Assembly: GCF_025947345.1 (NCBI RefSeq)
Contig: NZ_CP110011.1
Location: 4,526,001 to 4,590,000, forward strand
From: Flavobacterium sp. N502536
Lineage (GTDB): Bacteria; Bacteroidota; Bacteroidia; Flavobacteriales; Flavobacteriaceae
Direction of reading: 5' to 3'
DNA length: 64,000 nucleotides
Shown one piece after another: positions 5,851-33,489 of this stretch. Position 1 is the stretch's first letter. Every line of letters begins with the position of its first letter. The notes below the pieces were generated by a model that was not told the DNA's origin, ran no database searches, and saw only the letters and a list, made by a program, of their open reading frames with translations. The position numbers and the translations under genes were made by a program.

Positions 5851-7398
5851 TTATTGGAATCTTTTGATAAACTCCATCATATCACCTATGGTTTGTATGT
5901 CTTCTCTTTGAGTATTGCCAAGACCTTTCATCTTCTCAATATGCAGCAAACTGGTTAACATGGTCTTTTGTAAGCCGTTTAACGGATCCTTGCTGGTATC
6001 GGGCTCAGGAAGCAACTCTTTTAAATCGATATGGAAGGGAATATCAGGCCAATCCGTTCTTTTCTGATCGGAAAAGACTTCTGTAAACGGTAAAACTTCA
6101 GGATCGCTATCCCTTTCGGTCAACGCATCCAGGTCCCATTTCTGACAGGCCGTTTTGATAAAGGAAGTATGCTCGAACTGCCCGTTGATTATGGTATTGG
6201 GCTGAATATAAGACGATACCATTATCATCGGAACACGAACTCCCAGACGGTCAAAAGTAAAATCGCACTCTCCTATCATATCGGCAACAGGCGGTACTGT
6301 AGCAGGCGGGATCACATGATCAAAACAACCGCCATGTTCATCGTGCGTAATGATAAAAAGTATTTGGTCTCTTAGCGGACTGTCTTTGATAGCGTTATAT
6401 ACTTCGCGGATCAGTTCATCTCCTAATTTTACTGTTCCGGTTCCTAAATTATGTTTTACAGCCGACGGATGCTGATCGTTGTGCTTATGAAGAAATTGAG
6501 GTTCTACAAATGAATATTGCGGTAAATCCCCCTTTCTAAGATCATCAAGAAAATCATCATATCCATGTGTATGGTCCAGCCCTCTCTCATGCCCGTTGAC
6601 AACATAGGTCAGGCTCAGTGGTGCTATAGGCGAATAGATTTTCCAGGAAACATCCTTATCATACATGCGGTCAAAAATAGTAGGCAACGACCATACTTCT
6701 TCGACCCACGAATCCATTCCTTTTAGATCACCATCAAGCCCCGGAAAACCGTTCCCATCCTCACCAATCGGATTAATCACTTTACCTCCCGAACTGGCGG
6801 CATGCCAGAACGCCCTATTACAATAAGTTTGACTCGGCACTGAACAATACCAATGATCAAAAACTGCAAATTGTTTTGCCAAAGTAGCCATCGCAGGAAT
6901 CTGATCCGGCTGAAAGCACTCCATAATTACCTTATAATCGTCGAACGAGGGCTTTGCAATACCATAGGTCGACATCAGATTACTTTCATAATCGTTAACA
7001 AAGCCATTCATGGTGGGTTCCTGTGCAGAATTAGGTAAGTTGTATGGTTTGACCATATCATGATCGAGAACACCTACATTGCAATCAGGATTAATGGTAT
7101 CAAAAAGTTGTGTATTAACATGGGGATATTCTTCACCCGGATCCGGATAAGGTGTCCAATAATCGGCTGCACGTGAAGGAGAAATACTCGTTTCACCTGA
7201 CGGACTTGTAGCCCTGCCGGGAATAGGATTCGCATAGTCTACTTCCGGATTGTAAAGTCCTTCAAAAGATTTCCCATCCGGCACTTCATTCGGCTCATAG
7301 AGATAGCCTAATAAATTATCGAAAGAACGATTTTCGAGCATCAGTACCACGATATGGTCAAAAGTATCCAGACCGTTAAATTGCTTTTCATTTTCCAT
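5851..7398 (-). CDS. Phosphoesterase family protein (phospholipase C / acid phosphatase type)
   Basis: The protein has about 515 residues from the chosen start MENEKQFNGLDTFDH at 7398; the frame stays open to 7461 but the extra residues look like leader sequence. The N-terminal DHIVVLMLENRSFDNLLGYL is the signature of the phosphoesterase family that includes non-haemolytic phospholipase C and AcpA-type acid phosphatases, with the metal-binding ENRSFD. The C-terminal THDEHGGCFDHV matches the second metal-binding DExGGxxDHV block. No signal peptide or Tat motif is visible with this start, which is unusual for a family that is often exported. It probably hydrolyses phosphate esters or phospholipid head groups; the substrate is not predictable. 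It stands alone between unrelated genes. Confidence 0.85.
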   Translation of the reverse strand: MENEKQFNGLDTFDHIVVLMLENRSFDNLLGYLYEPNEVPDGKSFEGLYNPEVDYANPIPGRATSPSGETSISPSRAADYWTPYPDPGEEYPHVNTQLFDTINPDCNVGVLDHDMVKPYNLPNSAQEPTMNGFVNDYESNLMSTYGIAKPSFDDYKVIMECFQPDQIPAMATLAKQFAVFDHWYCSVPSQTYCNRAFWHAASSGGKVINPIGEDGNGFPGLDGDLKGMDSWVEEVWSLPTIFDRMYDKDVSWKIYSPIAPLSLTYVVNGHERGLDHTHGYDDFLDDLRKGDLPQYSFVEPQFLHKHNDQHPSAVKHNLGTGTVKLGDELIREVYNAIKDSPLRDQILFIITHDEHGGCFDHVIPPATVPPVADMIGECDFTFDRLGVRVPMIMVSSYIQPNTIINGQFEHTSFIKTACQKWDLDALTERDSDPEVLPFTEVFSDQKRTDWPDIPFHIDLKELLPEPDTSKDPLNGLQKTMLTSLLHIEKMKGLGNTQREDIQTIGDMMEFIKRFQ

Positions 7399-7608
7399 AC
7401 AAAACTGTTTTATCATACTAGATAACAGTAAATTAAAATGATTAAAACCAAAGTTGTACACGTAGTTTTACGTGTTTTTCGAAATGTAGTTTCTTTATCG
7501 TTCTAATCTTTTACCATACAATATAAATATAGTAAATTTCTTTCATGTTTGTGAAACAACTGAAATCAAAAATCAGCAATCATTTTTCTGTAATTCAAAA
7601 AAAACGGT

Positions 7609-9930
7609 TTAATCCACCAAAATCTCATCAACAAACAGCCATGAGCTTCCTCCTGTTGGAGCCTTTTTCAAGTTGGATACAATTACTTTTACAAATCGGA
7701 CCTCTTGTTGTACAAAATTGATTTTAAAATCTTTCAACTCTGAATTCACGTTCACCGCAAACGGACGTTTTATTTTCCCTACTTCTTTATAGTTAATGCT
7801 GTCCTTTGATACTAAAACTTTTAATTGTGTTGGGAAATAAATCCCGGCACCCTGACTTTCTAAAGTTCCAATTGCTACCTTTTCGATACTTTGTACTTTT
7901 TCAAGATCGATTACAATTTCCATATCATTGACCAGCCATGCCTGCCATTGACCATCATGGAAATTTTTAGATCCTCTGATTGCATTTACCATTCCAAAAG
8001 GACCATCTCCTTTATAACTTTCACTATAAGGCGTTAAATAACTCACCTTATGACCAAACCCCTTATGAAATACGATCGTATCTGTAAATATTCTCCCAAC
8101 CGGTTTATTGTCCTGAAACAAAGCCGCTTTTAACACTGTTGTTTGATTAAACGGAATCGGATTTGTATATTGTATGGCCTGATGTTCTATGTTTTTGTCC
8201 CCCAGAACATAACGAATGTCCGAATTTGGAAATTCATTTTTAAGGGTAACCTGAATCACTTTTTGGCGCAAATCAGCCACAGCCGAAGCCGTAACCAAAT
8301 AAGCGCTTTTGGCATAATTGATCCCTAAAAAATCGTATCGTTTCAACAAAGAAGGCAATCGGGAAGTAAAATTATTCCAATTGCGATTTTCTTTTGAACT
8401 CCATAAAACCTCAGACAAAGCAGCCAGTCTCGGAAAAATCATATACTCCGAAGCTTTTGGATTTGTGATAAATTCAGCCCATAAATTTGCTTGTCCGCCC
8501 AGAACATGATTGGCTTCCTGTGGCGTCATGGTAGCCACAACGGGATCAAATTCATAAACCTTATTCAATGGATTATAGGCATCAAAAGCTAGCGGTTCTA
8601 CGTTTTGAGGTCCCTGATAAAAATTAAAATAACAAGGAGATTCCGGCGACATGATGACGTCATGCCCCTGTCTTGCTGCTTCTGTCCCTCCTTTTGTACC
8701 TCTCCAACTCATCACAGTAGCTTCGGGAGCCAAACCGCCTTCCAGTATTTCGTCCCAGCCGATTAATTTTTTGCCTTTAGAATTGATGTATTTCTCTATT
8801 CTTTTCACAAAATAGCTTTGCAATTCATGGGCGTCTTTCAATCCGTTATCTGTCATTCTTTTTTGACAATTCGGACATTTGTCCCAATTGGTTTTAGTTG
8901 CTTCGTCGCCGCCAATATGAATGTATTTCGAAGGAAAAATGACAATGACTTCATCTATTACATCCTGCAAAAATTCAAAAGTAGTCTCTTTTCCGGCACA
9001 ATAAATATCCGTAATAGGCCATAATCCACCTGACGGAACTCCAATTCTCTGATTAAAACAAGCCAATTCAGGATAAGCCGCTATAGCCGAACTCACATGC
9101 GCCGGCATCTCGATTTCGGGAATAATTTCTATATTTTTTGCAGCTGCATATTTTACAATTTCTTTTAGTTCTTCCTGAGTCAAAAAACCACCGTAAGTTC
9201 CTTTTTCATCCGGATTGGTAACCAGTCTTGCATTCCAGGCTGCATTTTCCTGATCGACTCTCCAGGCTCCAACTTCGGTAAGTTTTGGATATTTTTTTAT
9301 TTCAATTCTCCAACCCTGATCGTCAACCAAATGCAAATGCAAAACATTCATTTTTAGCATTGCCAACCGATCGATAGTCTCAATGATGTAATTTTTATCA
9401 AAAAAATGACGTGACAAATCCAACATCAATCCTCGCCATTGAAAACGAGGTTCGTCTGTAATGGTAAGATTCGGAATCTCCCATTTTGCAGCTGTTATCA
9501 CGTTTTTACTTTCAATACTTTCAGGAAGTAATTGTCGGATGCTTTCTAAACCGTAAATAAAACCTGCATTTCCTTTTGCCGTAATGGTTACGTTTTCTTT
9601 ATTTACCTCCAATACGTAAGCTTCGTTCTTTAAAGTGGGATCGACTTTAAACTGAACATAATTTCTTTTTGGAAGGGCACTTGAAATTTCAGGACGAAAT
9701 CCTGCTGCAGTTTGAAATTTGTTTATTAAAACCGTAGCAATTTCCTTTTGAGCGTCGCCGCTTACCACAAATTTAGTCGTTGCAGAAAACTGAAAACTCC
9801 CTTGTTTAAGGACCAATTGCTTTGGTTTCGGAATGATTTGAATGTCTTTTTCTACAGATATTTTTTGGCTGTAAGCCTTGCTTAAAAACGTCAGAAGAAG
9901 TACAACAAAGATTGGTTTTAGTATTTTCAT
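7609..9930 (-). CDS. Beta-N-acetylhexosaminidase, glycoside hydrolase family 20
   Basis: The protein has 773 residues with a signal peptide (MKILKPIFVVLLLTFLSKAYSQ). Residues about 25-160 form the GH20b non-catalytic domain, and the TIM barrel follows with FQWRGLMLDLSRHFF, LHLHLVDDQGWR, IPEIEMPAH and HIGGDEATK (about 335-343). The Asp-Glu pair in that last motif is the catalytic pair of substrate-assisted hydrolysis. The last 150 residues resemble a carbohydrate-binding (F5/8-type) beta-sandwich ending SSWLFVDEILVD. It removes terminal GlcNAc or GalNAc from chitin oligomers, glycans or peptidoglycan fragments, in the periplasm or at the surface. It is a single gene on the minus strand, 110 bp before the methyltransferase gene and in the same direction. 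Confidence 0.95.
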   Translation of the reverse strand: MKILKPIFVVLLLTFLSKAYSQKISVEKDIQIIPKPKQLVLKQGSFQFSATTKFVVSGDAQKEIATVLINKFQTAAGFRPEISSALPKRNYVQFKVDPTLKNEAYVLEVNKENVTITAKGNAGFIYGLESIRQLLPESIESKNVITAAKWEIPNLTITDEPRFQWRGLMLDLSRHFFDKNYIIETIDRLAMLKMNVLHLHLVDDQGWRIEIKKYPKLTEVGAWRVDQENAAWNARLVTNPDEKGTYGGFLTQEELKEIVKYAAAKNIEIIPEIEMPAHVSSAIAAYPELACFNQRIGVPSGGLWPITDIYCAGKETTFEFLQDVIDEVIVIFPSKYIHIGGDEATKTNWDKCPNCQKRMTDNGLKDAHELQSYFVKRIEKYINSKGKKLIGWDEILEGGLAPEATVMSWRGTKGGTEAARQGHDVIMSPESPCYFNFYQGPQNVEPLAFDAYNPLNKVYEFDPVVATMTPQEANHVLGGQANLWAEFITNPKASEYMIFPRLAALSEVLWSSKENRNWNNFTSRLPSLLKRYDFLGINYAKSAYLVTASAVADLRQKVIQVTLKNEFPNSDIRYVLGDKNIEHQAIQYTNPIPFNQTTVLKAALFQDNKPVGRIFTDTIVFHKGFGHKVSYLTPYSESYKGDGPFGMVNAIRGSKNFHDGQWQAWLVNDMEIVIDLEKVQSIEKVAIGTLESQGAGIYFPTQLKVLVSKDSINYKEVGKIKRPFAVNVNSELKDFKINFVQQEVRFVKVIVSNLKKAPTGGSSWLFVDEILVD

Positions 9931-10040
9931 ACTTTATTATTTTAAAAAGGGTAAAATTTTAAACTGATACTGATCACTTTTGGCTCTTAGCAAAGACCCT
10001 TAACAAAACCGCTAAAGGCAGCAGACCACTTTTAATGGTG

Positions 10041-10499
10041 TTAAGAGCGTGGTTTCGGTAAGTTTCTGTCGTACATAATAATAGTTCCGGCGACAGCCAC
10101 ATTTAAACTCTTAACCGATTTAAATTTTACTAAATGATGGCACTTCTCCATTACTTTTTTGGACAGACCATGATCTTCTGCTCCCAATAAATAGACACAG
10201 CGTCTTGGATGTTCATAGGTTTCCAGATCAGAAGCATTTTCGTTTAGCTCAACTCCAACCAATCTTGCTCCTTTTGGTAAGTTTTCAAGAAAAGCTTCAA
10301 AGGTATCATAATGGAAATAAGGAATTGCTTTAACCGCATCATGTGTGTCGCAGGCTTGCTTGGCATATCGATTTCCGATCGTAAATATAAAAGTAGCACC
10401 CAAATTTTGAGCGGATCGCCACAAAACACCCAAATTCTCAGGTGTTTTACCATTTTGAATCCCTATCCCAAAATATTCATTTGTAAAATTATCATTCAT
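10041..10499 (-). CDS. TrmH-family (SpoU) RNA 2'-O-methyltransferase
   Basis: The protein has 152 residues from the ATG at 10499; the frame is open further upstream, but a good promoter overlaps that part. It has the SPOUT knot signature: FGIGIQNGKTPENLGVLWRSAQNLGA (motif 1 with the catalytic Arg-type NLG-xxRSA), LLGAEDHGLS (motif 2, SAM-binding) and SLNVAVAGTIIMYDR (motif 3). It lacks the N-terminal RNA-binding extension of longer TrmH/RlmB proteins, as in the short TrmL-like forms. It probably methylates a ribose in tRNA or rRNA; the exact target is not clear. Confidence 0.92.
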   Translation of the reverse strand: MNDNFTNEYFGIGIQNGKTPENLGVLWRSAQNLGATFIFTIGNRYAKQACDTHDAVKAIPYFHYDTFEAFLENLPKGARLVGVELNENASDLETYEHPRRCVYLLGAEDHGLSKKVMEKCHHLVKFKSVKSLNVAVAGTIIMYDRNLPKPRS

Positions 10500-21628: not shown

Positions 21629-24049
21629 TTACTTTTTCCATTTTAAGCGAAGGCTGTTACTCACCACACTTACGCTGCTTAAAGCCATTGCAGCACCGGC
21701 TATCATTGGATTCAGCAAGAACCCGTTTATCGGATACAGTATCCCCGCAGCAAGCGGAATACCGATAAGATTATAAATAAATGCCCAGAATAAGTTTTGT
21801 TTGATCGTCGCTACCGTTTGTTTAGACAAACGAATGGCTTGTGGTATCTTCGTCAGATCTGAAGAGATGATGGTCATTTTGGCCACATCCATTGCAATAT
21901 CACTCCCCTTACCCATTGCGATACTTACATCGGCGGTTGCCAGGGCTGTACTGTCATTGATACCATCACCTACCATTGCCACCGTTTTACCTTGTTGCTG
22001 CAATTCTTTTACAAAGTCGGCTTTGTGTTGTGGCAGTACTTCTGCTTTATAATGTTTGATTCCGGTTTGGGCAGCGATCGCTTTTGCAGTAGCTTCGTTA
22101 TCCCCTGTGAGCATATACAGTTCAATATTCATGTCTTGCAATTCTTTAATGGCTTGAACTGAGGTCTCTTTGATCTTATCTGAAATTGCAATAACCGAAA
22201 GTGCCTGCTGACTATTGGCAAACCAAATCACAGTCTTCGATTCTTTGCCCCATTCCTCTGCCTGATTCAACAGTGAATCCGGAATCACAATAGTGTTCTC
22301 TGCCAACAACTTTTTGTTCCCTACATAATAGGTTTGCTCCTGGTAAGTGGCTTTTGCTCCTTTACCGGTAATACTGTCAAAATCTGATAAAACGACAGTT
22401 GTTACGCCTTCCAGGTTCTTTACCACGGCTTCTGCCAACGGATGTTCGGATTGCTTTTCGATGCTTAGCAGAACCTCTTTAGTTGTAGCGTCATCGTTGA
22501 ACCATTTTATACCGGTTACCTGTGGTCTTCCTTCGGTAATGGTTCCGGTTTTATCCAATACGATGGCGGTTACTTTTCTTGCCAGCTCTAAACTTTCGGC
22601 ATCTTTGATTAATATTCCGTTTTCGGCACCTTTACCTACTCCTACCATGATCGCTGTTGGTGTAGCCAGTCCCAAAGCACAAGGACAGGCAATAACCAAT
22701 ACCGTAACGGCAGCCAATAGCGCTTGTGCAACAGCATTATCTCCCCCCAGAACAATCCAGGCAATAAAAGTTAGAATTGCTATACCAATTACTATCGGAA
22801 CAAATATACCGGCAATTTTATCGACTAATTTCTGCACAGGGGCTTTACTTCCCTGAGCGTCCTGCACCATTCTGATAATTTGGGCCAGCATGGTCTCTTT
22901 ACCTACTTTAACCGCCTGAAACTGAAAACTTCCTTTTTGATTGATCGTTCCGGCAAATACTTTTTCATTTTCTTTTTTCAATACCGGAACCGGTTCACCG
23001 CTTAACATACTTTCATCTACATAAGATTGACCGGAAAGAACCATACCGTCAACAGCGATTTTTTCACCTGGTTTTACCAGAATAATAGCTCCGGCATTTA
23101 CCTCCTCAATAGCCACTTGTTTTTCTGTTCCGTCGGGTTGAATCACGATCACCGTTTTGGGCTGTAAACCCATTAATTTTTTAATAGCTGATGAAGTATT
23201 TCCTTTGGCTTTTTCTTCCAACAATTTACCCAACAGAATAAAGGCAATAACAACTGCCGCTGCTTCAAAATATACGTGGGCATGCAATCCGCGTTGGTGC
23301 CAGAAATCCATGAATAACATGTTAAAAACACTAAACAAATAGGCAATTCCGGTGCTCAAAGCGACCAATGTATCCATATTGGCCGAACCATGCTTCGTTT
23401 GTTTCCATGCATTTATAAAGAAATCTTTACCGAGCCACAGAATTACGGGTGTCGAAAACAGCCACATGATCTCATTGGCATAAGGCATATCCATAAAGAA
23501 CATCCCTATCACTACTACGGGTAGCGACAGCAGAACGGCCCAGATGGTCTTGTTTTTTAGTTTTTTAAATTTCTCTGCATGAATAGCCTCCAGAGACTCC
23601 TGTTGTTTCGATTCGTCTAAAATTAGCAAGTCGTAACCAACGGCCTGAACGGCTTTTTGCAGTGTAGAAGCATTGGTGAGATTCGGAAGATACTCTACGG
23701 TAAGATTTCCTGTTGCAAAGTTTACCGATGCATCCACTACTCCCAGTTCATAAGATACGATGCTTTCTGCACTTCCGGCACAAGAGGCACAAGTCATTCC
23801 TAAAACAGGAAATGTATTTTTGACAGTTGGCACACCATATCCCAGGTCTTTTATCGCCTTTACGGCATTACCAACCGTTTCATTGTTTTTAACGGTAATA
23901 GCAGCTCTGCGGTTATTGACTTCTACTTTGTGGGTTTCAACGTCTTTAACTTCTGCTAATCCTTTCTCAACGATTAATGCACAGTGCTCGCTCTCTACAT
24001 CTTCCAGCGGAATGTAAATTGTTTCCTTAGTATTATAATTTGTTGCCAT
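21629..24049 (-). CDS. copA: Copper-translocating P-type ATPase
   Basis: The protein has 806 residues. The N-terminus holds a degenerate HMA fold without ligand cysteines (about 1-70), then a functional one with GMTCASCAG (about 82-90). The PIB-1 hallmarks follow: a GEPVPVLK actuator motif, [12 protein letters not shown] in TM6 (about 454-465), DKTGTITEG (about 498-506, phosphorylated Asp), SEHPLAEAV (nucleotide-binding HP motif), [10 protein letters not shown] (about 693-702) and the C-terminal [10 protein letters not shown] and [15 protein letters not shown] of Cu(I) pumps. It exports Cu(I) to the periplasm, where pump 1 could take over. An AraC-type regulator with an HMA-like N-terminus lies 84 bp upstream and is likely its regulator. 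Confidence 0.96.
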
Positions 24050-24133
24050 AATTCGCTTGTTCTTTTATAACTGCAAAGTTGGCAACAATACCGCTGTTTT
24101 TTATTGTGGAATTATGGATTTGATTTGTAAAAT

Positions 24134-24700
24134 TTACTTAAACCTCATCCAAAGGTTTTCTTTTCTCTTCCGGATTTGCTTGAAATGGCTTGGTGTTAAT
24201 CCGGTTACTTTTTTAAACTGATTGCTCAGATAGGCAACACTGGAATAGTTTAAGCGCAAAGCGATCTCACTAAGCGATAACTCATCATAAACCAAAAGCT
24301 CTTTAATTTTCTCAATTTTTTGTGCTATGAAATACTTTTCTATGGTAGTACCTTCTACCTCCGAAAACAAATTTGAAAGATAGTTGTAGTCATGATTGAT
24401 TTTCTCGCTCAGGATATCCGACAGGTTATTTTTGGTATCATTATCCTGATGGTGCACCAGTTCGATAATGATGTTTTTTATCTTTTCGATGATTCTGCTC
24501 TTTTTATCATCTATGACTTCAAATCCAAGCGGAACCAGTACTTCCTCCAGCGCGTTTCTTTCTTCAGAGTTGAGTTCTCTTGTTAGCGTAACTTCACCCA
24601 GCTTAATATTGGTAAAATCCAACCCGAGTTTTTCTAGTTCGTTTTGAACGACCATAATACAACGGTTGCAAACCATGTTTTTAACAAATAATGTACTCAT
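24134..24700 (-). CDS. AraC-family regulator with metal-binding-like N-terminus
   Basis: The protein has 188 residues. Residues 1-65 (MSTLFVKNMVCNRCIMVVQ...LGFEVIDD) look like an HMA-type ferredoxin fold with a CNRC ligand pair, but they sit where AraC proteins usually have an effector-binding domain. Residues about 85-185 are an AraC double helix-turn-helix: LSLSEIALRLNYSSVAYLSN followed by QFKKVTGLTPSHFKQIRK. This suggests a cytosolic copper or heavy-metal sensor controlling the adjacent copA. The domain order is seen in other Bacteroidota next to metal genes; direct metal sensing is inferred. The start at 24700 is supported by a TAAGTTTG box about 40 bp upstream. Confidence 0.85.
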   Translation of the reverse strand: MSTLFVKNMVCNRCIMVVQNELEKLGLDFTNIKLGEVTLTRELNSEERNALEEVLVPLGFEVIDDKKSRIIEKIKNIIIELVHHQDNDTKNNLSDILSEKINHDYNYLSNLFSEVEGTTIEKYFIAQKIEKIKELLVYDELSLSEIALRLNYSSVAYLSNQFKKVTGLTPSHFKQIRKRKENLWMRFK

Positions 24701-25253: not shown

Positions 25254-26687
25254 ATGACAAATCTTGAAAAAATCTATTATGTAAACGCCGGACCGGGCGG
25301 AACATTTCAAAAATCCGGAGACTATTATACTACACCTGCCGATGTCGACAACCTGTTCAAACATCTGGAAGATCACGACATCGAAAGATTGCTCGTTTAT
25401 TTCCATGGCGGACTCGTAAATGAAGCCAGCGGAATGGAAGCGGCTGAAGTTATGCGTACCAATTTCGTTGATGCTCCATCCAAAACACATGCGGTTACCT
25501 TTGTATGGGAAACAGGTCTTTGGGAAATCATAGTCGAAAATCTTAGTGCCAAAAGCTCAGACAATCAATTCCAGAAAGTACTTAATTATGTGATTAAAAT
25601 TGTAGGCAAAAAGCTGGGCGTTGGTGCACGTGGTGGTGGAGTAACACTTGACAACCCGACAATTGAAGCAGAAAAACTAAAAGTTTATCCCTTTGCTCAA
25701 CTAAACAATCAACTCGGAAATAGCCGAAGCGGAAGCGTTATGTTTGATGAAGATGATGAAGAAGGCTTCCTGGCCAGACTTGAACAGGAAAGTAATACCA
25801 TGATCCGCGCAGAAGATGAAATGGCTACAGAAGAAATTGAAGTGGCAGAACCTGATCCCGATGCAGGAGATTCAAGAGGATTATTACTGACGCTAGGGAA
25901 ACTTGTAGCCAAAATTGCGTTTGCAGTGCTGAAACGTTACGCGCAAGAGACCCATCACGATTTTTACCCAACTATTGTAGAAGAAACTTTTAGAAAGATT
26001 TATATCGACCGTGTAGGCAAATGGGGCTGGTCTGAAATGAAAGAAAAGGCCCAAAAAATGTTTGATGATAATCAAGGACGCTCGGGTGACGATTTACATG
26101 CCGGAACCTATTTTCTTTCCTTATTAGAAAAACATTATCAAAAAAGACAAAATGCAGGTAAAAAATTCGCTATCGAACTCGTAGGTCATAGCGCGGGCTC
26201 TATCGCAATTTGTAACATGCTGGCCGCAACATCCGAAAATTTCAAACAATTAAAATACAACAATGTTGTTTTTCTGGCGCCTGCCTGCAGAACCGACCTC
26301 TTTATCGCAAAAGGAATTCCTGCTAAACAGAATGGGGTTTACAAAAAATTCAAGATGTTTACCATGAAGGAAGAGAATGAGAAAAAAGATTACTGCGTTA
26401 AATACCTGTACACCTACTCCCTGCTCTATCTGGTATCAGGCTTGTTCGAAGACGAAACCGATGCAAAGATAATGGGGCTTCATGAGCAGTTTAAGGCTAA
26501 AAAACGTTATGAAAATTTCGCCGAATTGAAAACGATCAATAGCTTTATTATGAGCAATAAGCTGGCACTGTCAGATGATATCACCAATACGGATAACAGC
26601 ATGTGGACCGATTCTTTCCGCCATGGTGATTTTGACAACAACCCTGCCACTCTGAAATCAATCCTTTCAACTATCAATATCGTTTAA
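25254..26687 (+). CDS. Alpha/beta-hydrolase-fold protein, first gene of the caspase operon
   Basis: The protein has 477 residues and no signal peptide. VYFHGGLVNEASG (about 48-60) fits an oxyanion-hole loop, and ELVGHSAGSIAICNML (about 308-323) is a nucleophile elbow GxSxG with the catalytic Ser. VVFLAPACRTDLF then supplies a possible acid, and FRHGDFDN near the C-terminus a possible catalytic His. Between the halves lies an insertion with a striking acidic linker (about 163-208), rich in Asp/Glu and containing DPDAGDSRG. It ends 2 bp before the caspase gene. It could be a lipase, esterase or other hydrolase effector. Cleavage of the linker by the caspase is a hypothesis only. Confidence 0.7.
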   Translation: MTNLEKIYYVNAGPGGTFQKSGDYYTTPADVDNLFKHLEDHDIERLLVYFHGGLVNEASGMEAAEVMRTNFVDAPSKTHAVTFVWETGLWEIIVENLSAKSSDNQFQKVLNYVIKIVGKKLGVGARGGGVTLDNPTIEAEKLKVYPFAQLNNQLGNSRSGSVMFDEDDEEGFLARLEQESNTMIRAEDEMATEEIEVAEPDPDAGDSRGLLLTLGKLVAKIAFAVLKRYAQETHHDFYPTIVEETFRKIYIDRVGKWGWSEMKEKAQKMFDDNQGRSGDDLHAGTYFLSLLEKHYQKRQNAGKKFAIELVGHSAGSIAICNMLAATSENFKQLKYNNVVFLAPACRTDLFIAKGIPAKQNGVYKKFKMFTMKEENEKKDYCVKYLYTYSLLYLVSGLFEDETDAKIMGLHEQFKAKKRYENFAELKTINSFIMSNKLALSDDITNTDNSMWTDSFRHGDFDNNPATLKSILSTINIV

Positions 26688-26689
26688 TT

Positions 26690-27739
26690 ATGGATTATGC
26701 TATTGTAATAGGAATCGACCATTACGAGAAAAAACCATTGTCGGGTGCTGTAGCTGACGCGAAAGCTTTTGCCAATTGGCTGGAAACAAAAGGAGGTGTT
26801 AAAAAAGAAAACCTCAAACTCTTTGTTTCCAACAGCGCAGACCTGCTCGTTAGTGGTCCCGAAATTGACATTGCCATCAACGAAATGAATCGTGTTGCCA
26901 GACCGAAAAATGAAATAAACAGATTGTATTTTTATTTCTCCGGGCATGGTATAGGCGTCACTTTTGAGAATACGGCACTGTGCCTTCGTCTTTGGCCGTC
27001 ACTAATCAACCATTGTATCTCGGGTATGGATTACCGCACCTGGTTTACCAATGCGGGAGCGTTTGATGAGATCCTAATTTTCTTTGATTGCTGCCGTGAA
27101 CATGATACGCTAATTAAAGGGAATTCCCCTATGGGTCCCTGGAATCTTCCGGTGGGTAACCGGAATCCAAAAGTGCTCATTTGTAATTCTACCGCCTACG
27201 GCAAACTGAGTTATGAGGTGACTATTGATCCGGTAATAAACAATCCTTCAGACGGTGGAGCAGCGAACGACGAACAACCAAAAGAATCAGAGTCTGATAA
27301 AAAAAGAGGGGCTTTTACCACTTTCCTTATCGACAGTCTCAATGGTGATGCCGATAGTGATGCAACCGGGCAAATTACGGCAATGAATCTTACGAATCAT
27401 ATTCGGAACAATTTTAAAAGTCATGCCGAAAAATTCAAAAAAATACAGGATGCTTCAGCCGATTTCCTAAATGGCGGAGATCAGATTCTGATTTGCAAAG
27501 TTCCTGTGAGACTGCCAAAATACAATTGCGAAATTACCTTCGAACGAAACTCCAATGTGACCCTCTACGGTCCTAACCTCGAAGAAGTCTGGCACGGTGA
27601 TGTTACCATAGGGCAGGTTTTGCAACTAAAAAGGCTGGCCAAAGGCTTCCATCAGTTAAAAGACAATACTGATACTGCAGCACCACCCAAAACTTTTATC
27701 AATTACTCTCCAAAAACAATCAGTTATGAACGATTCTGA
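26690..27739 (+). CDS. Caspase-family (C14) protease
   Basis: The protein has 349 residues. The N-terminus YAIVIGIDHYEKKPLSGAVADAKAFANWL is the first beta-strand and helix of the caspase fold. RLYFYFSGHGIG carries the catalytic His (residue 86), and ILIFFDCCREHD the catalytic Cys (residue 135, second Cys of DCC, as in metacaspase-type sites). Residues about 145-250 complete the p10-like part. Residues about 262-330 (NCEITFERNSNVTLYGPNLE...) form a separate beta-rich domain. The gene starts 2 bp after the hydrolase gene, and its last 14 bp overlap the next gene. Bacterial caspases act in defence or programmed death by cleaving partner proteins; the partner here is unknown. Confidence 0.88.
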   Translation: MDYAIVIGIDHYEKKPLSGAVADAKAFANWLETKGGVKKENLKLFVSNSADLLVSGPEIDIAINEMNRVARPKNEINRLYFYFSGHGIGVTFENTALCLRLWPSLINHCISGMDYRTWFTNAGAFDEILIFFDCCREHDTLIKGNSPMGPWNLPVGNRNPKVLICNSTAYGKLSYEVTIDPVINNPSDGGAANDEQPKESESDKKRGAFTTFLIDSLNGDADSDATGQITAMNLTNHIRNNFKSHAEKFKKIQDASADFLNGGDQILICKVPVRLPKYNCEITFERNSNVTLYGPNLEEVWHGDVTIGQVLQLKRLAKGFHQLKDNTDTAAPPKTFINYSPKTISYERF

Positions 27740-29129
27740 TCCTAAATATTCCATTCATATTTCTTTCAGACAACCTCTGGAAGGGCTGCAACTTGTACTT
27801 GTTGATGGCACACTGAACAAAATTGTAGAGGAAGAGACCCAAAAACTTGAACTTTCACTGCTAAAAGGAATCTACCAATTAAAAGCTTCTTTTATAGACT
27901 ATTTTGAGGAATACTTTCTGACTGTAAGCCAGGATGAGCATTTCGTTTTGGATTACCATTACCCAATGACTTCTCCCAGTATGGAATTTGCAACAACGCA
28001 TGAGTATTTTTCGAACCCTGCTGAAACGTGGAGTCGAAAATGTACATCAAGTGACAATAATAAGATTCCTAATTTCTTTTTCTTTGCTGCGGCCTATGAC
28101 AGGGATTTTCCAAATAAAGAGCAAACCGTTATAGAGCTGCTGACGAGCTTTTCTCTATTTGATCCTAACGGTAAACTATATATTCGTTTCAGGGATAAAA
28201 ACTCGTTTATCGATCCGGATGCTTCCGTACTGGTTTTTTCTGCCCGACTCAAAAAAGGGATGTATTTCCTTCAATATGAAAAAGAAAAGGAACGCAGAAT
28301 TTTTCCCTTTTATATCTATGACCGGTTTCAAACCCAGTTTTTGCTGCGCTACAAACAAACTCCCGATTTTTCGAACAGTTTTTTCTACTATGACAATAAA
28401 TTTGGATTTAACAGAACGGACGACAAATACTTGTTACTGGACAAAATTCAATATGTTTATAAAGACTACAGCAATTATAAACTGCTGACTCCTTCGGATC
28501 GCTCTGCTATAAAAGCCCATCCCTATCTGGTCGCCCTTTTGCATGTTCTTCATCTGGTTACGGAAAACGAACAGGACAGTTTAGAATTTGCCAATGTACC
28601 AATATTATACCTTCCCGACATTGCATTACTCACAGCCTTAAAAGACAGCAAGCAGCAGATCAATTCAGATCAATTACCAATCGTCTCGGCGATAATGGCC
28701 AAATGTATGGTAACTGCCGGAAAAAAAATGGAATTCAGACCCGGGTCTATAATGGATCGTGTGCTGGACAGTCTGAGTTTTGATATCTTCTGGAACAATT
28801 TTTCAGCGGTAGAAGACCTCTTAATTATGGAAAAACTGTACAATGAGCTGCTGGATAAATCAAAAATTTTCAGTAAAAATATCAAAAGAAAAGCGACACA
28901 AATCCTTGCGAATTCAATCGCACCCGAATTGCTAAAAGAGGAGCGTCTCAACACGCTATTGGGAAATAACCCCATTGACACGCCGGAAAGTGATCTCAAA
29001 TTTATAGAAGCTATTAAGAGTGTAGGCGACGTATCGAAGATCTCCAATAAACTCAATCTCCCTCCTACAACTATTCTTCGCAACTATGAAAAGTATGATG
29101 ATATCTACAAAAAAATGAATCTCAAATAA
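27726..29129 (+). CDS. Uncharacterised third gene of the caspase operon
   Basis: I do not recognise this 467-residue protein. Residues about 8-80 (SIHISFRQPLEGLQLVLVDG...GIYQLKASF) look like a beta-sandwich that may resemble the extra C-terminal domain of the caspase encoded before it. The middle (about 80-250) is aromatic and beta-rich, and residues about 250-467 are helical. Near the end, DVSKISNKLNLPPTTILRNYEKYD has a helix-turn-helix-like cadence. The start overlaps the caspase gene by 14 bp, so the products are probably made together. It may be the sensor, adaptor or scaffold of the system. No enzyme motif is visible. Confidence 0.7.
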   Translation: MNDSDPKYSIHISFRQPLEGLQLVLVDGTLNKIVEEETQKLELSLLKGIYQLKASFIDYFEEYFLTVSQDEHFVLDYHYPMTSPSMEFATTHEYFSNPAETWSRKCTSSDNNKIPNFFFFAAAYDRDFPNKEQTVIELLTSFSLFDPNGKLYIRFRDKNSFIDPDASVLVFSARLKKGMYFLQYEKEKERRIFPFYIYDRFQTQFLLRYKQTPDFSNSFFYYDNKFGFNRTDDKYLLLDKIQYVYKDYSNYKLLTPSDRSAIKAHPYLVALLHVLHLVTENEQDSLEFANVPILYLPDIALLTALKDSKQQINSDQLPIVSAIMAKCMVTAGKKMEFRPGSIMDRVLDSLSFDIFWNNFSAVEDLLIMEKLYNELLDKSKIFSKNIKRKATQILANSIAPELLKEERLNTLLGNNPIDTPESDLKFIEAIKSVGDVSKISNKLNLPPTTILRNYEKYDDIYKKMNLK

Positions 29130-29217: not shown

Positions 29218-29664
29218 TCATACAGCTTTAATACCATTATAAATTGCGATAAAGAAAAAAATCACCCCCAATCCAAAAGAAAATTCGCTGAGAATTAAGA
29301 AGATTCTCGAAAACAGTAATGTTCGATGCAAACCCTTTTTTTGTTTACTCGCTTTAGCCGCATTTCCATTGTTCTGAGCGCGCAATAAACAAATATACCA
29401 ACTCATTGCGTCTGTGGCAAAATACCTGTGACACAGACAAGCGCCTGAACAAATAACAAAAAATACTAAGGCTACAATAAATTCAGAGTAATCTAATTTA
29501 GGAGCTAATCCTTCATTTTTTATTTTCGCAACGAAAAGTGCACCAAACCCTGCAATGGCCAATAAAGAAAGCCGAAGCAACTCAGCGGTAAATTTGATAT
29601 AATTTTCAGAAATTATAAAGTCAGCCTGATAATCTGCTTCGTCAACTGTGTAAGGTGTTGCCAT
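29218..29664 (-). CDS. Small uncharacterised membrane protein
   Basis: The protein has 148 residues with three hydrophobic helices: about 28-46 (LLRLSLLAIAGFGALFV), 63-82 (FIVALVFFVICSGACLCHRY) and 118-142 (ILSEFSFGLGVIFFFIAIY). A basic loop, AAKASKQKKGLHRT, separates the last two. No family is recognised. It faces the caspase operon across a terminator. It may be unrelated, or it may be a membrane component of the same system; small multi-helix membrane proteins are common effectors in conflict systems, but nothing in the sequence proves this. Confidence 0.6.
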   Translation of the reverse strand: MATPYTVDEADYQADFIISENYIKFTAELLRLSLLAIAGFGALFVAKIKNEGLAPKLDYSEFIVALVFFVICSGACLCHRYFATDAMSWYICLLRAQNNGNAAKASKQKKGLHRTLLFSRIFLILSEFSFGLGVIFFFIAIYNGIKAV

Positions 29665-29993
29665 GATATGTAACGGTTAATTGGTTAATGCCTTGCTATC
29701 AAGACTGGAATTCATAACTAAAAAAGCTCCTCAAATATACCAATCCTAAAAACATAAAAATCAAGTGTTTCTACTTGATTTTCGTAACCTAAAAAAATCA
29801 AGGAAATTATTTACTAATTACGGTTTTCCTTTTTATTCTTCCATATATATTCAATATTTTAGCATGAAACCCAAATCTAGTTTCATCGGATTTCAATAAC
29901 GCAAAAATAAAAAGGCTTGCAGTTCTTTTTTCTTAAGAAATGATCCCTTAATCAATAAGAATTTAATCTTTATAATAAAAAACAATACAGTTT
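29665..29993. other. 329-bp stretch without a gene
   Basis: AT-rich. ATCAAGTGTTTCTACTTGAT (about 29760-29779) is a perfect 8-bp inverted repeat around a TTTC centre. Nothing else was recognised. Confidence 0.45.
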
Positions 29994-30470
29994 ATGAACT
30001 TTTTAGTTATTTCAGGCGCACCCAAAACGGGTAAAACAACTTCAATCAATATTATTGCAGAATGGTTGACCACTGGTCTTACAGCGGATATAAACGGAAA
30101 TCCATTTCCTTCTTTTTTGCCAAATTCTGAGGAAGAATACAATGACTTTTCTATTGTCATTCACCGACTTGGAAAAAAGATTATTATTCACTCTGCCACA
30201 GACGATAAAAAATGTATGAATGGTTTGATCAAAAAATTAAAACAGAATTCAGATGCCGATGTTGTTATAACCTCTTGCAGAGATATTGATTGGCAAAGAG
30301 ATTATTTTACTGCTCGCATCAAACCTTTTGCGACTTTCTTTTTAGAGTCTCCTTTAGGTAAAATTCCCCGAAAAAATGAAGAGAGACTTGCTGCTGCTAA
30401 AAAGTGGCACAAAGAAACGTTACTTCTTCTACACCAACATATTCTATCAAATACCCCATATCATTTATAG
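29994..30470 (+). CDS. P-loop NTPase-like small protein
   Basis: The protein has 158 residues and opens MNFLVISGAPKTGKTTSINI, a Walker A motif (GxxxxGKT) right after the first beta-strand, as in small kinase-like and ATPase folds. ADVVITSCRDIDW may hold the Walker B region. The C-terminal part has no recognised lid or base-recognition motif. The short length suggests a nucleotide-binding regulator or a minimal kinase rather than a full AAA+ protein. The next gene starts 57 bp downstream on the same strand. No function is assigned. Confidence 0.6.
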   Translation: MNFLVISGAPKTGKTTSINIIAEWLTTGLTADINGNPFPSFLPNSEEEYNDFSIVIHRLGKKIIIHSATDDKKCMNGLIKKLKQNSDADVVITSCRDIDWQRDYFTARIKPFATFFLESPLGKIPRKNEERLAAAKKWHKETLLLLHQHILSNTPYHL

Positions 30471-30527
30471 TTTCTGCACTTGTCAAAACTGGTATAACCA
30501 CTATATATAATTTAACATAAGACCCTT

Positions 30528-30950
30528 ATGAAAATTGAAGAGCTTAGAATTGGAAGTATCGTAGTAAACAGTACTACTGATAAAATCATCAGAGTTAAAG
30601 GCATCTCCGATGATGGCTTTATAACCGTAAGAAAAGATGCATTGTCTGATGAAAATATCGATATTGAAAATATAATACCACTTTATATAAATGATCCTAT
30701 GCTCGGACAAATCGTCGATCATAGGGTTATTACGAAAGCCCCCCGCAAAAAAAACATTTATTATTTCCCAAATCAAACAGCAACCTTTTTCCTTGTCAAA
30801 CTTAAAGAATCTAATTTTGTAATTGGAATGATTGATGTGAAATTACCTGAAAAATATAGAAGACTTACAAAATCTTTCAGTGAATATCATAAGCTACAAA
30901 ATGCACATAAAACAATTTTCGATACTGAACTTCCTTGGTTGAACATTTAA
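30528..30950 (+). CDS. Uncharacterised 140-residue protein
   Basis: The protein has no signal peptide or membrane helix. The N-terminal half (MKIEELRIGSIVVNSTTDKIIRVKGI...) reads as beta-strands, like a small barrel; the second half has APRKKNIYYF...ATFFLVKLKESNFVIGM. Proteins of this size and style, starting with KIEELRIGS-V, occur in Bacteroidota genomes as stand-alone hypothetical proteins or immunity-like partners. It lies between the P-loop gene and a TPR gene. No function is assigned. Confidence 0.5.
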   Translation: MKIEELRIGSIVVNSTTDKIIRVKGISDDGFITVRKDALSDENIDIENIIPLYINDPMLGQIVDHRVITKAPRKKNIYYFPNQTATFFLVKLKESNFVIGMIDVKLPEKYRRLTKSFSEYHKLQNAHKTIFDTELPWLNI

Positions 30951-31002
30951 AAATTGAAAAAGCATATAATTGCTTCTAAGAAATTTAGCAAAAATAAAAT
31001 CT

Positions 31003-31857
31003 ATGACTAGTAAAATAATCGAACCGATAGTACAACAATATAATGAGAATAATTGGGAATTTATTTACCCTTCATCTATTGATAATGAAAAAATAAGTGA
31101 TGAATTTTGGCATGCAGTAAAACTTTTAGACAATGATGATCAAATGGCCGAAAAGGTTTTTAAAAAACTGATTACAAAACATCCATACTATATCGATGCA
31201 TACAATCACTTAAGTATATCTTTCAGAAATCAGGGGAAAAAGTTTGAAAGTTTCTTAACGGCTGAAAAATCATTTAATTTAGGTAAGAATTGTTTGCCAA
31301 AATCCTTCAATTTAAAAAAAGACAAGTTGCCTTGGTCTAATATAAATAATCGCCCTTTTTTAAGAGCTTGCCAATCTTTTGGATTAGAATGTCAATATCA
31401 TCAAAATTATTCTCAAGCAATCGAAATATATAAACTTAATTTAGCTTTAAATGAAAATGATAACCAAGGAATTCGATATTTATTACTTGAAACATTATTT
31501 GCGGCAAAAGATTATAAACAAGCTCAACAATTACTAAATAAGTATTCTGATGATTTTTCAATAGAATTCAAATTTGGTTTAGTTGCGATAAGTATTCTGC
31601 AAGATAATTATAAACGAGCGGATAAATATTTAGAGGAAGCAATACAAACAAATAAGTTCTTTATAGAAGAAGTTATTAAAGACAGACATTTAAAGCCTTC
31701 CCCATTTAGAATTCCAGGTATGCCAAACTTCGATGCCGGTATTCCAGACCGTTCTATTCAGCAAGCATTCGAATACTGGGAAAGGAATAAACAATTATAT
31801 AAGACAAATAAAATAATTGACTATATTAAAGCTAGACAAAAACTAACTCTCAAATAA
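31003..31857 (+). CDS. TPR-repeat protein of unknown function
   Basis: The protein has 284 residues from the ATG at 31003 (MTSKIIEPIVQQYNENNW); an upstream TTG at 30970 is less likely. Helical repeats include AEKVFKKLITKHPYYIDAYN and HQNYSQAIEIYKLNLALNEND, with the tetratricopeptide spacing and the Ala/Tyr/Pro positions of TPR motifs. The C-terminus IPGMPNFDAGIPDRSIQQAFEYWERN is distinctive and not a TPR. Such proteins are scaffolds for protein-protein contact. It is 52 bp behind the preceding gene and could be cotranscribed. Confidence 0.7.
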   Translation: MTSKIIEPIVQQYNENNWEFIYPSSIDNEKISDEFWHAVKLLDNDDQMAEKVFKKLITKHPYYIDAYNHLSISFRNQGKKFESFLTAEKSFNLGKNCLPKSFNLKKDKLPWSNINNRPFLRACQSFGLECQYHQNYSQAIEIYKLNLALNENDNQGIRYLLLETLFAAKDYKQAQQLLNKYSDDFSIEFKFGLVAISILQDNYKRADKYLEEAIQTNKFFIEEVIKDRHLKPSPFRIPGMPNFDAGIPDRSIQQAFEYWERNKQLYKTNKIIDYIKARQKLTLK

Positions 31858-31932: not shown

Positions 31933-33489
31933 TTACTCTTTTTTATAAGGACATTCTGAAGCGGGCCCTGATGATGCCGATGATCCGGCTTTATAAGTAC
32001 CCGGGAATTGTTCCTCGATTAAACGTTTTTGTTCAGGGGAAACATCTTCCATTTTACGAAGTGTATTCACTTGAATGTGCGGCCAGCTTGTGGTACCTCC
32101 GTCGTCTCCGAAATCAAATTCGAAAAATATAACCTGCTCGTATTGCAACTGAAGAATTTCTTTATCATTTTCAAAAATTGTTTCTAACCACATTCTCATG
32201 TTCATTTCGACCGTAGGAACAAAACGATTTACAAACGGAACATTTAATATCCCTCCTTGTGCTCCTGTTTTATTTTTGGACGACAATTCGAGCAATACAT
32301 GGTTTCTTACGTCTTCACCTTTCAACGTATCACGAAGGCGTAAATCTGGCCGTACCGAATAAGGATATAAATGATGCGCTAATATTCGTTGAGTATAAAT
32401 TTTATTCTCGCCTTCATCGTTTTTATCATCCAATGTCTCAAATACCCAAGGTGGTGGCGGTGCATCAAGATTTATAGGCTCATTGCTCGTATCTGCTCCT
32501 CCCATTGTTTGCGAAATAGCAAGATGTTTATAGTCCCAGGCCGCAAACCCTTCCGCGTACTTTGGAGCACCATTAATCAAATAACCTGATTTATTTGGCT
32601 TTAAATCTCCCAGCAATGTAATTGTACTTCCATGTGGAATTACGCCACTTCGGGAAATCGAGTAATCAGGTATAAAGTAAGGTCCGGTTTGGCCCGCTCC
32701 CGCTTTTAGTTCTTTAGAAGCGATAATCTCATAATACTTACGTCCGTTTAAGTTTTCGAGTGTTACATATTCTTTATTGCCCTGATCGTCCTTGATTAGA
32801 AAAAGGGTTTCGTCCTGATATCCGCTTTTGTATAAATCTTTGTGCGGGTTATTTGGCGATACTGCATGTACACCGCGGTCTTCTTTAATCGTTTTATCCG
32901 TTGCCGCATAATTAAAGATATCACTCAACCATAAATACATACCATTCTCTTCGTGAATTGGGGTATATAATAAAGAATCCTGCCCAGGTATGCTGTTTAC
33001 ACTTTTAATACTTTGCTCGTATTTTACTGCTCCACAAAACTGCTCATTTGCTCCTCCACGGTTGCGAACGCCTCCGGGTACCAGGTTAAAAGTCAGTTTT
33101 TCGATATATTCTTCACATTCAAAGCTGTATTTTCCCGGAATGGTTCCTGCACCTGTACCAGGCGAAGGCATGATGGTGGTATGAATACCGCTGCCTACTA
33201 ATTTTTTCTGAGACTGGTTGTCATTGTTATTGTTGTAGCTTACCCAGGTGCCTTCTAATACTCTTAAAATACCGTAATCTACATTTTTTACAATGGTTTG
33301 AAGGTTCTCTTCATAAAAAGGTCGGATAGGATCTTCAATCAGAACTTTTTGATACTTGGACAGCAGCTTGTGTAATATTCCTTCTTCTTCCTGAAGAGCT
33401 TCAAATACCGCTTCATTTGCCTTTTGAGCAAAATCAGCCGTGAGCTGATTTAAATTTCCTCCTTCTTCGAGGTCTTTGCGTTTTAACAT
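31933..33489 (-). CDS. Large uncharacterised protein, possibly calycin-like
   Basis: The protein has 518 residues and no signal peptide. Two regions look like repeats of a beta-barrel type: GILRVLEGTWVSYNN...GSGIHTTIMPSPGTG (about 75-115) and the part with YSISRSGVIPHGSTITLLGDL (about 270-300). Gly- and Pro-rich NLVPGGVRNRGGANEQFCGAV follows the first. The GTW-start and IMPSPG signature recalls lipocalin/heme-binding-like families, but I cannot confirm this. HHLYPYSVRPDLRLRDTL and EFDFGDDGGTTSWPHIQVNTL mark the C-terminal third. It stands alone. No function is assigned. Confidence 0.6.
   Translation of the reverse strand: MLKRKDLEEGGNLNQLTADFAQKANEAVFEALQEEEGILHKLLSKYQKVLIEDPIRPFYEENLQTIVKNVDYGILRVLEGTWVSYNNNNDNQSQKKLVGSGIHTTIMPSPGTGAGTIPGKYSFECEEYIEKLTFNLVPGGVRNRGGANEQFCGAVKYEQSIKSVNSIPGQDSLLYTPIHEENGMYLWLSDIFNYAATDKTIKEDRGVHAVSPNNPHKDLYKSGYQDETLFLIKDDQGNKEYVTLENLNGRKYYEIIASKELKAGAGQTGPYFIPDYSISRSGVIPHGSTITLLGDLKPNKSGYLINGAPKYAEGFAAWDYKHLAISQTMGGADTSNEPINLDAPPPPWVFETLDDKNDEGENKIYTQRILAHHLYPYSVRPDLRLRDTLKGEDVRNHVLLELSSKNKTGAQGGILNVPFVNRFVPTVEMNMRMWLETIFENDKEILQLQYEQVIFFEFDFGDDGGTTSWPHIQVNTLRKMEDVSPEQKRLIEEQFPGTYKAGSSASSGPASECPYKKE

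Follow-up and report, generated by a model that had tools for sequence, protein, structure and literature searches.

What might a bacterial caspase be doing when its gene lies between those of an alpha/beta hydrolase and of a large protein that falls in no accepted family? The question is raised by a three-gene operon of Flavobacterium sp. N502536 (genome of one contig, 5.05 Mb), located in a stretch of 64,000 nt of contig NZ_CP110011.1 (positions 4,526,001 to 4,590,000) that we call the window. An earlier note on this DNA, made from the letters alone, had described the hydrolase with its GHSAGS motif, the caspase with His86 and Cys135, and a 467-residue third protein, here p3, the first two genes being separated by 2 bp and the last two overlapping by 14 bp; sizes, motifs and spacings were all confirmed from the coordinates of the open reading frames (ORFs; Table 1), and the three-gene caspase operon is real, conserved and modular. 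Our preferred explanation, to which we give about an even chance, is that a metacaspase-like protease activates a lipase-like hydrolase by cutting it in three Arg/Lys loops, with p3 likely in control, and that the freed enzyme harms lipids or membranes, stopping the infected cell.

Basic loops of the hydrolase and predicted specificity of the caspase

The hydrolase carries the GxSxG nucleophile elbow of the alpha/beta hydrolase fold, and its best Pfam match, to DUF900, is sub-threshold (18.0 bits vs a cut-off of 20.5). The insertion that precedes the elbow is 152-204 residues long in 22 loci and 0-87 residues in 9 others (one of the nine, L055, being a partial match of 60.8 bits). Across an alignment of 48 hydrolases (A2; that of the window together with 47 of the 120 listed, out of 2903 matched), 14 columns consist of Arg or Lys in at least 80% of the sequences, and at only three of these, columns 126, 158 and 208, all within the insertion, does Gly come next in at least 80%. 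At these three positions Arg mixes with Lys, the minor residue making up 35-44%: R in 29 and K in 17 sequences at column 126 (then G in 46), R in 21 and K in 21 at column 158 (then G in 40 or S in 6), and R in 26 and K in 21 at column 208 (then G in 46). The same column test returned no Arg/Lys-mixing column before Gly in either the caspase or p3. Counted over hydrolase residues 120-216, [RK]G dipeptides number 141 as compared with a mean of 49.5 and a maximum of 73 in 500 shuffles, a comparison of related sequences that is not to be read as a probability. The structure model of the hydrolase is confident overall (mean predicted local distance difference test score, pLDDT, of 88.3; predicted template modelling score of 0.90), and the only segments of at least three residues with pLDDT below 50 coincide with the three basic sites.

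These loops go together with a neighbouring caspase. In 21 of the 22 long-insertion loci a caspase gene follows immediately in the same orientation (gap -4 to 103 bp); among the 22, L022 and L004, equal in length, look to be one contig, L018 and L029 are close relatives, and L001-L006 were found through p3 and L028 through the caspase, only the remaining loci having been found through the hydrolase alone. The sole long-insertion locus that has no adjoining caspase, L052, keeps site 1 and has lost sites 2 and 3. None of the nine short-insertion hydrolase domains has an [RK]G dipeptide in that stretch, and none has a separate caspase (9/9 for each); in one, L053, a caspase is fused in cis. The earlier note had staked its picture on the genes staying together and on conserved catalytic residues, and both are found: all six loci retrieved with p3 are intact, as are nearly all long-insertion hydrolase-caspase pairs, and Ser313 is kept in 48/48 hydrolases and His86 and Cys135 in 47/47 caspases.

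Two further arrangements were seen among the short-insertion relatives. The hydrolases of L024, L030, L054 and L064 are fused to a papain-like Peptidase_C1 domain (4/4 scanned), another protease-hydrolase pairing. The L053 protein (7655-10498, minus strand) joins Amidase_2, the hydrolase domain and the caspase in 947 residues, and its 1143-residue neighbour has CHAT and alpha/beta-hydrolase-type matches.

The main new argument comes from the predicted substrate pocket of the caspase. Metacaspases and MALT1 cleave after Arg or Lys. Their S1 pockets, as given in PMC4357240, are formed by Cys92, Asp95, Ser156 and Asp211 in TbMCA2 and by Asp365, Asp462 and Glu500 in MALT1. The GAVxDA motif of the window caspase aligned with the metacaspase GCINDA in a HMMER search of the PDB, and Asp133 was assigned to S1 by its spacing to Cys135; Asp23 and Asp133 correspond to Asp95 and Asp211 of TbMCA2 and to Asp365 and Asp462 of MALT1, so that the window caspase has the metacaspase-type arrangement of an acidic residue on helix 1 and another two positions before the catalytic Cys. 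Because of this match we predict that the caspase prefers Arg or Lys at P1, a preference that would fit the Arg and Lys conserved in the hydrolase loops. The caspase residues are invariant in an alignment of 47 caspases (A3; 46 of 55 together with that of the window; Table 1). Among the 29 caspases of the fetched loci and the window, His86, Asp133 and Cys135 are kept in 29/29 and Asp23 in 26/29, the exceptions being L019, whose ORF lacks the N-terminus, L053, with Glu, and the genome's own second caspase-family protein, L059, with Ser. The latter (G000:C1:4315001-4332000, 8048-9184, minus strand; 378 residues) is encoded beside proteins of 422 and 683 residues.

Table 1. Features of the operon, in window coordinates, with conservation or supporting values.
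Feature	Position	Strand	Conservation or support
Gene 1, alpha/beta hydrolase, 477 aa, predicted caspase-gated effector	25254..26687	+	
Insertion of ~153 residues (about residues 103-255)	25560..26018	+	short or lacking in less closely related hydrolases
Predicted cut site 1, Arg126-Gly127	25629..25634	+	[RK] 46/48, G 46/48; pLDDT <50 at 126-128
Predicted cut site 2, Arg158-Ser159 (relatives mostly have Gly)	25725..25730	+	[RK] 42/48; pLDDT <50 at 158-160
Predicted cut site 3, Arg208-Gly209	25875..25880	+	[RK] 47/48, G 46/48; pLDDT <50 at 200-208
Nucleophile Ser313 of GHSAGS	26190..26192	+	invariant 48/48
Gene 2, caspase-family (C14) protease, 349 aa	26690..27739	+	PF00656 E 4.3e-15, better than the Pfam cut-off
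Asp23, predicted S1-pocket residue, GAVADA motif	26756..26758	+	47/47
Catalytic His86	26945..26947	+	47/47
Asp133 (predicted S1), Cys134, catalytic Cys135	27086..27094	+	each 47/47
C-terminal beta domain of the caspase, with profile homology to the p3 N-terminus	27452..27736	+	
Gene 3, p3, 467 aa, predicted sensor/adaptor	27726..29129	+	
p3 N-terminal transthyretin/CnaB-like beta domain, residues 1-82	27726..27971	+	
p3 C-terminal helix-turn-helix-like motif LNLPPTTILRNY	28974..29126	+	alignment A4

The third protein and the modular relatives of the operon

p3 has no accepted Pfam family, its only listed Pfam match being a weak one to Por_Secre_tail, and 33 homologues were collected, itself included (27 of these rows, the window's own among them, make up alignment A1). 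Its N-terminus is tied to the caspase by profile comparison: the caspase C-terminus aligned to it over 48 columns (hhalign probability 95.6, E 1.3e-8), while six other segment pairs scored at most 4.3. The structure prediction for p3 that the earlier note had called for gave a model of pLDDT 71.7 in which the C-terminal half is poorly modelled. The helix-turn-helix-like tail in that half suggests nucleic-acid contact, and three relatives have sub-threshold matches to HTH_24 or HTH_Tnp_ISL3. p3 is likely a sensor or adaptor. Two p3 homologues, P0028 and P0033, are longer (703 and 721 residues) and by eye show one membrane-spanning segment plus a further domain at the C-terminus.

The system is rare. 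p3 retrieved six loci from GTDB genomes, five in Flavobacterium and one in a member of the Prolixibacteraceae (identities of 55% for the hydrolase, 54% for the caspase and 43% for p3), and the order hydrolase-caspase-p3 holds in all six. p3 was present in 1/199 relatives' genomes, namely its own, and in 3/395 genomes of the phylum, one of these being a weak match of 66 residues; a strong caspase match occurred in 1/299 Flavobacterium genomes (again its own), with 3 further weak matches, and the hydrolase in 4/296 phylum and 9/395 class genomes. In flanking genes (ORFs of at least 150 residues) the window and L001, a Flavobacterium metagenome-assembled genome whose p3 is 97% identical, share a site, L002-L004 have common upstream genes, and L005 has neither set. 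Hydrolase queries led to more remote operons, and with p3 recognised by profile the same gene order holds in five Bacteroidota genomes (L048, L049, L050, L051 and L061), in the rhizobial plasmid loci L016 and L017, and in L028, p3 homology being strong by profile (hhalign probability 98-99) in L016/L017/L028, L049, L050 and L051. The exact 14-bp overlap of caspase and p3 is repeated in L001-L006, L017, L028, L048 and L050, and also joins the caspase to the next gene in L021 and L026, which is an argument from position.

Relatives differ in what accompanies the caspase. In L018, L019 and L029, also on rhizobial plasmids, hydrolase and caspase are followed by a pYEATS-domain protein (by Pfam in L018 and L019, by annotation in L029); a subtilase is encoded upstream of the caspase in L021, and the gene of a large caspase protein is preceded by that of a metallopeptidase in L020 (M12 by annotation) and in L027 (a Pfam match to M10/astacin). 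L026 has trypsin and Endonuclease_NS domains encoded downstream, in L028 these two are fused to p3, and L016 has trypsin and PLD fused to p3. L023 is a single protein joining caspase and p3-like parts (p3 profile E 2.4e-3); the similar caspase protein of L020 (901 residues) resembles p3 of L017 in its later half. Two Sinorhizobium meliloti plasmids carry a lysozyme gene directly upstream of the hydrolase-caspase-pYEATS genes (L018:3912-5675, by Pfam; L029:3335-5098, by annotation), possibly an extra effector. Just upstream of the operon in L048, the gene at 6499-8109 encodes a protein that matches APH and, weakly, Ternary complex associated domain 9.

Comparison with known caspase systems

The logic of the operon looks like that of Canu (KaeCanABC; Tuck et al. 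2025, PMC12799240), in which a tested caspase with its partner protein activates a gated nuclease, partner and caspase form a complex, and the effector has disordered insertions with conserved Gly at the predicted cut sites. Each of the two systems has three genes, for a protease of the caspase family, for a partner protein and for an insertion-bearing effector enzyme, and the window protease has the catalytic His and Cys of a caspase; the Canu effector, however, is an MBL-fold nuclease encoded downstream, whereas here an alpha/beta hydrolase is encoded upstream of the caspase and the predicted sites are Arg/Lys-Gly. No match to an MBL or nuclease family was found in the three operon proteins or the six neighbours scanned. 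The Canu caspase bears an Ig-like C-terminal domain; at this end the window caspase has the domain related by profile to the N-terminus of p3.

A second likeness, in gene neighbourhood, is to the VMAP (MoxR-vWA) ternary systems, for which Pfam holds models. There, in the words of Kaur et al. 2020 (PMC7159879), the caspase always has a neighbouring alpha/beta-hydrolase gene, as the long-insertion hydrolases here adjoin a caspase; in contrast to those systems, the caspase here is a stand-alone protein of 349 residues (PF00656 only) with p3 as a recurrent third partner. No MoxR gene lies beside the operon, the nearest of four PF07726 matches in the genome being more than 1.1 Mb away even if the contig is circular, and a scan of nine proteins around the operon found no vWA domain, a genome-wide vWA search not having been made.

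The EACC1-caspase two-gene system combines the caspase as constant activator with variable effectors (PMC7159879). The best NCBIfam match of the window caspase is caspase_w_EACC1, yet its score (NF047832, 39.7 bits vs a cut-off of 140) places it outside the EACC1-associated subfamily, and the gene before it encodes the hydrolase. The resemblance to metacaspases and MALT1 lies in the S1 aspartates and the His/Cys dyad; MALT1 has a C-terminal Ig-like fold (PMC12799240), whereas the present caspase, from a bacterial operon, has a C-terminal domain homologous to the transthyretin/CnaB-like domain of p3.

The pairing of caspase and hydrolase and the caspase-activated effector are already known. The earlier note's remark that it could match the design to no named system needs qualifying in view of the VMAP pairs and the logic of Canu; the open-access PMC papers searched described neither this set of three genes nor p3, nor did they report caspase cleavage sites in hydrolases of this type. 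The note's trigger-protease-effector design gains from the predicted cut sites, the domain shared by caspase and p3, and the defence genes beside some relatives, and stays a design read from sequence. Taken as a whole, its interpretation is partly supported.

Proposed mechanism, alternatives and meaning

In the mechanism that we favour, p3 would sense trouble, the caspase would cut the pro-hydrolase at the three conserved Arg/Lys-containing loops, and the freed lipase-like enzyme would attack lipids or membranes, so that the infected cell is stopped by a self-destruct switch, probably directed against phages; cleavage at the three sites, a gain of activity on cutting, the lipid substrate and the antiphage role of the operon are all steps that we infer. 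A more detailed version, which we put forward only tentatively, is that of a new immune system in which the caspase cuts two propeptide segments out of a pro-lipase at the three Arg/Lys-Gly loops to yield a membrane-destroying effector, p3 acts as a hitherto undescribed DNA-contacting sensor docking on the caspase via the shared transthyretin-like domain, and the effector is swapped in relatives for a subtilase, an astacin-like protease, Endonuclease_NS or PLD.

A number of observations weigh against the favoured mechanism. Conserved [RK]G columns occur in the caspase as well (206, 42/47; 318, 29/47), so that the hydrolase is not alone in having such dipeptides. At site 2 the window hydrolase reads Arg-Ser; [RK]G in the strict sense occurs at all three sites in 34/48 hydrolases and at sites 1 and 3 in 42/48; and P0082, a sequence without gene context, has none of the three. 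Among caspase-adjacent hydrolases, by eye, L017 and L028 lack site 2, L018, L029 and L023 lack sites 1 and 2, and L019 lacks all three, while the loss of sites where no caspase adjoins rests on the single locus L052. That long insertions and adjoining caspases go together may simply reflect the family tree, and AlphaFold confidence falls also where alignments have indels. For p3, homology is weak in L021/L026 (hhalign probability 45), L020/L027 (33) and L023 (12) and was not seen in the pYEATS loci (6), and these groups therefore rest on position and partial BLAST similarity. Finally, no recognised defence gene was found among the proteins scanned at the window.

The loops could instead be uncut, flexible hinges of a lid in a hydrolase that is active alone, beside a caspase acting on other cell proteins, the two being parallel effectors steered by p3. 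Hinges would likewise be Gly-rich and modelled with low confidence, some caspase-linked hydrolases do without the sites, and the systems of Kaur et al. list caspase and alpha/beta-hydrolase domains both as effectors (PMC7159879). We nevertheless consider hinges rather unlikely: they need no interchange of Arg and Lys before Gly at three places, and the one long-insertion hydrolase that has no caspase neighbour has lost two of the sites.

With regard to an antiphage role, the earlier note had proposed a survey for nearby defence genes, and these turned up at some relatives' loci. In L061 the Gabija genes GajA (E 1.1e-293) and GajB (E 7.4e-234) precede the operon, one 207-residue gene lying between, and in L050 a DpdF-type helicase is encoded upstream (DpdF E 6.4e-209, also PsyrT 5.7e-106); the scan covered ten neighbours of four loci, so these finds are not a rate, and the other seven had no match or weaker ones whose meaning is not clear. 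The recognisable genes beside the window operon encode an AraC-type regulator and a peroxidase, hydrolase relatives were not found in phage records or viral contigs, and caspase-hydrolase pairs belong to VMAP ternary systems of other bacteria. All three points would suit a role other than antiphage defence, be it in lipid remodelling or cell death linked to stress or development, or as part of a larger VMAP-like system with genes elsewhere. That reading is, in our judgement, improbable given its sparse distribution (hydrolase in 9/395 class genomes), its changing genomic sites, the adjoining Gabija genes of L061, the nuclease and trypsin fusions of relatives and the distance to the nearest MoxR match. 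The reverse order, with the hydrolase or its product as trigger, p3 as substrate or effector and the caspase as executioner, is very improbable, for although p3 may be an effector in relatives where it bears nuclease, PLD or trypsin domains, the window p3 has no recognised catalytic domain and no [RK]G column of p3 reaches half of the 27 sequences (at most 12/27).

As for the neighbouring genes, the window's peroxidase is a strong match to the FMP type (31933-33489, minus strand; NF040571, 594.6 bits) and is common to L001 at 95% identity. Between operon and peroxidase (29218-31857) lie genes for a small nSTAND3-like protein, a 140-residue protein and a TCF25/TPR-like protein; L001 has other genes here, and we therefore call this segment a variable spot. 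On the other side, the 188-residue AraC-type regulator, which has a weak N-terminal HMA-like match, adjoins an 806-residue protein that reads by eye as a P-type copper ATPase (the two together at 21629-24700, minus strand).

The switching on of a killer enzyme by caspase cutting is central to animal cell death. If activation by cutting holds, the hydrolase would be a lipid-attacking counterpart of the caspase-activated nuclease of Canu. The prediction is unusually sharp in that it names three residues, R126, R158 and R208. A caspase-gated lipase would extend the Canu principle to membrane damage and would suggest a general rule, in which one protease serves exchangeable pro-effectors.

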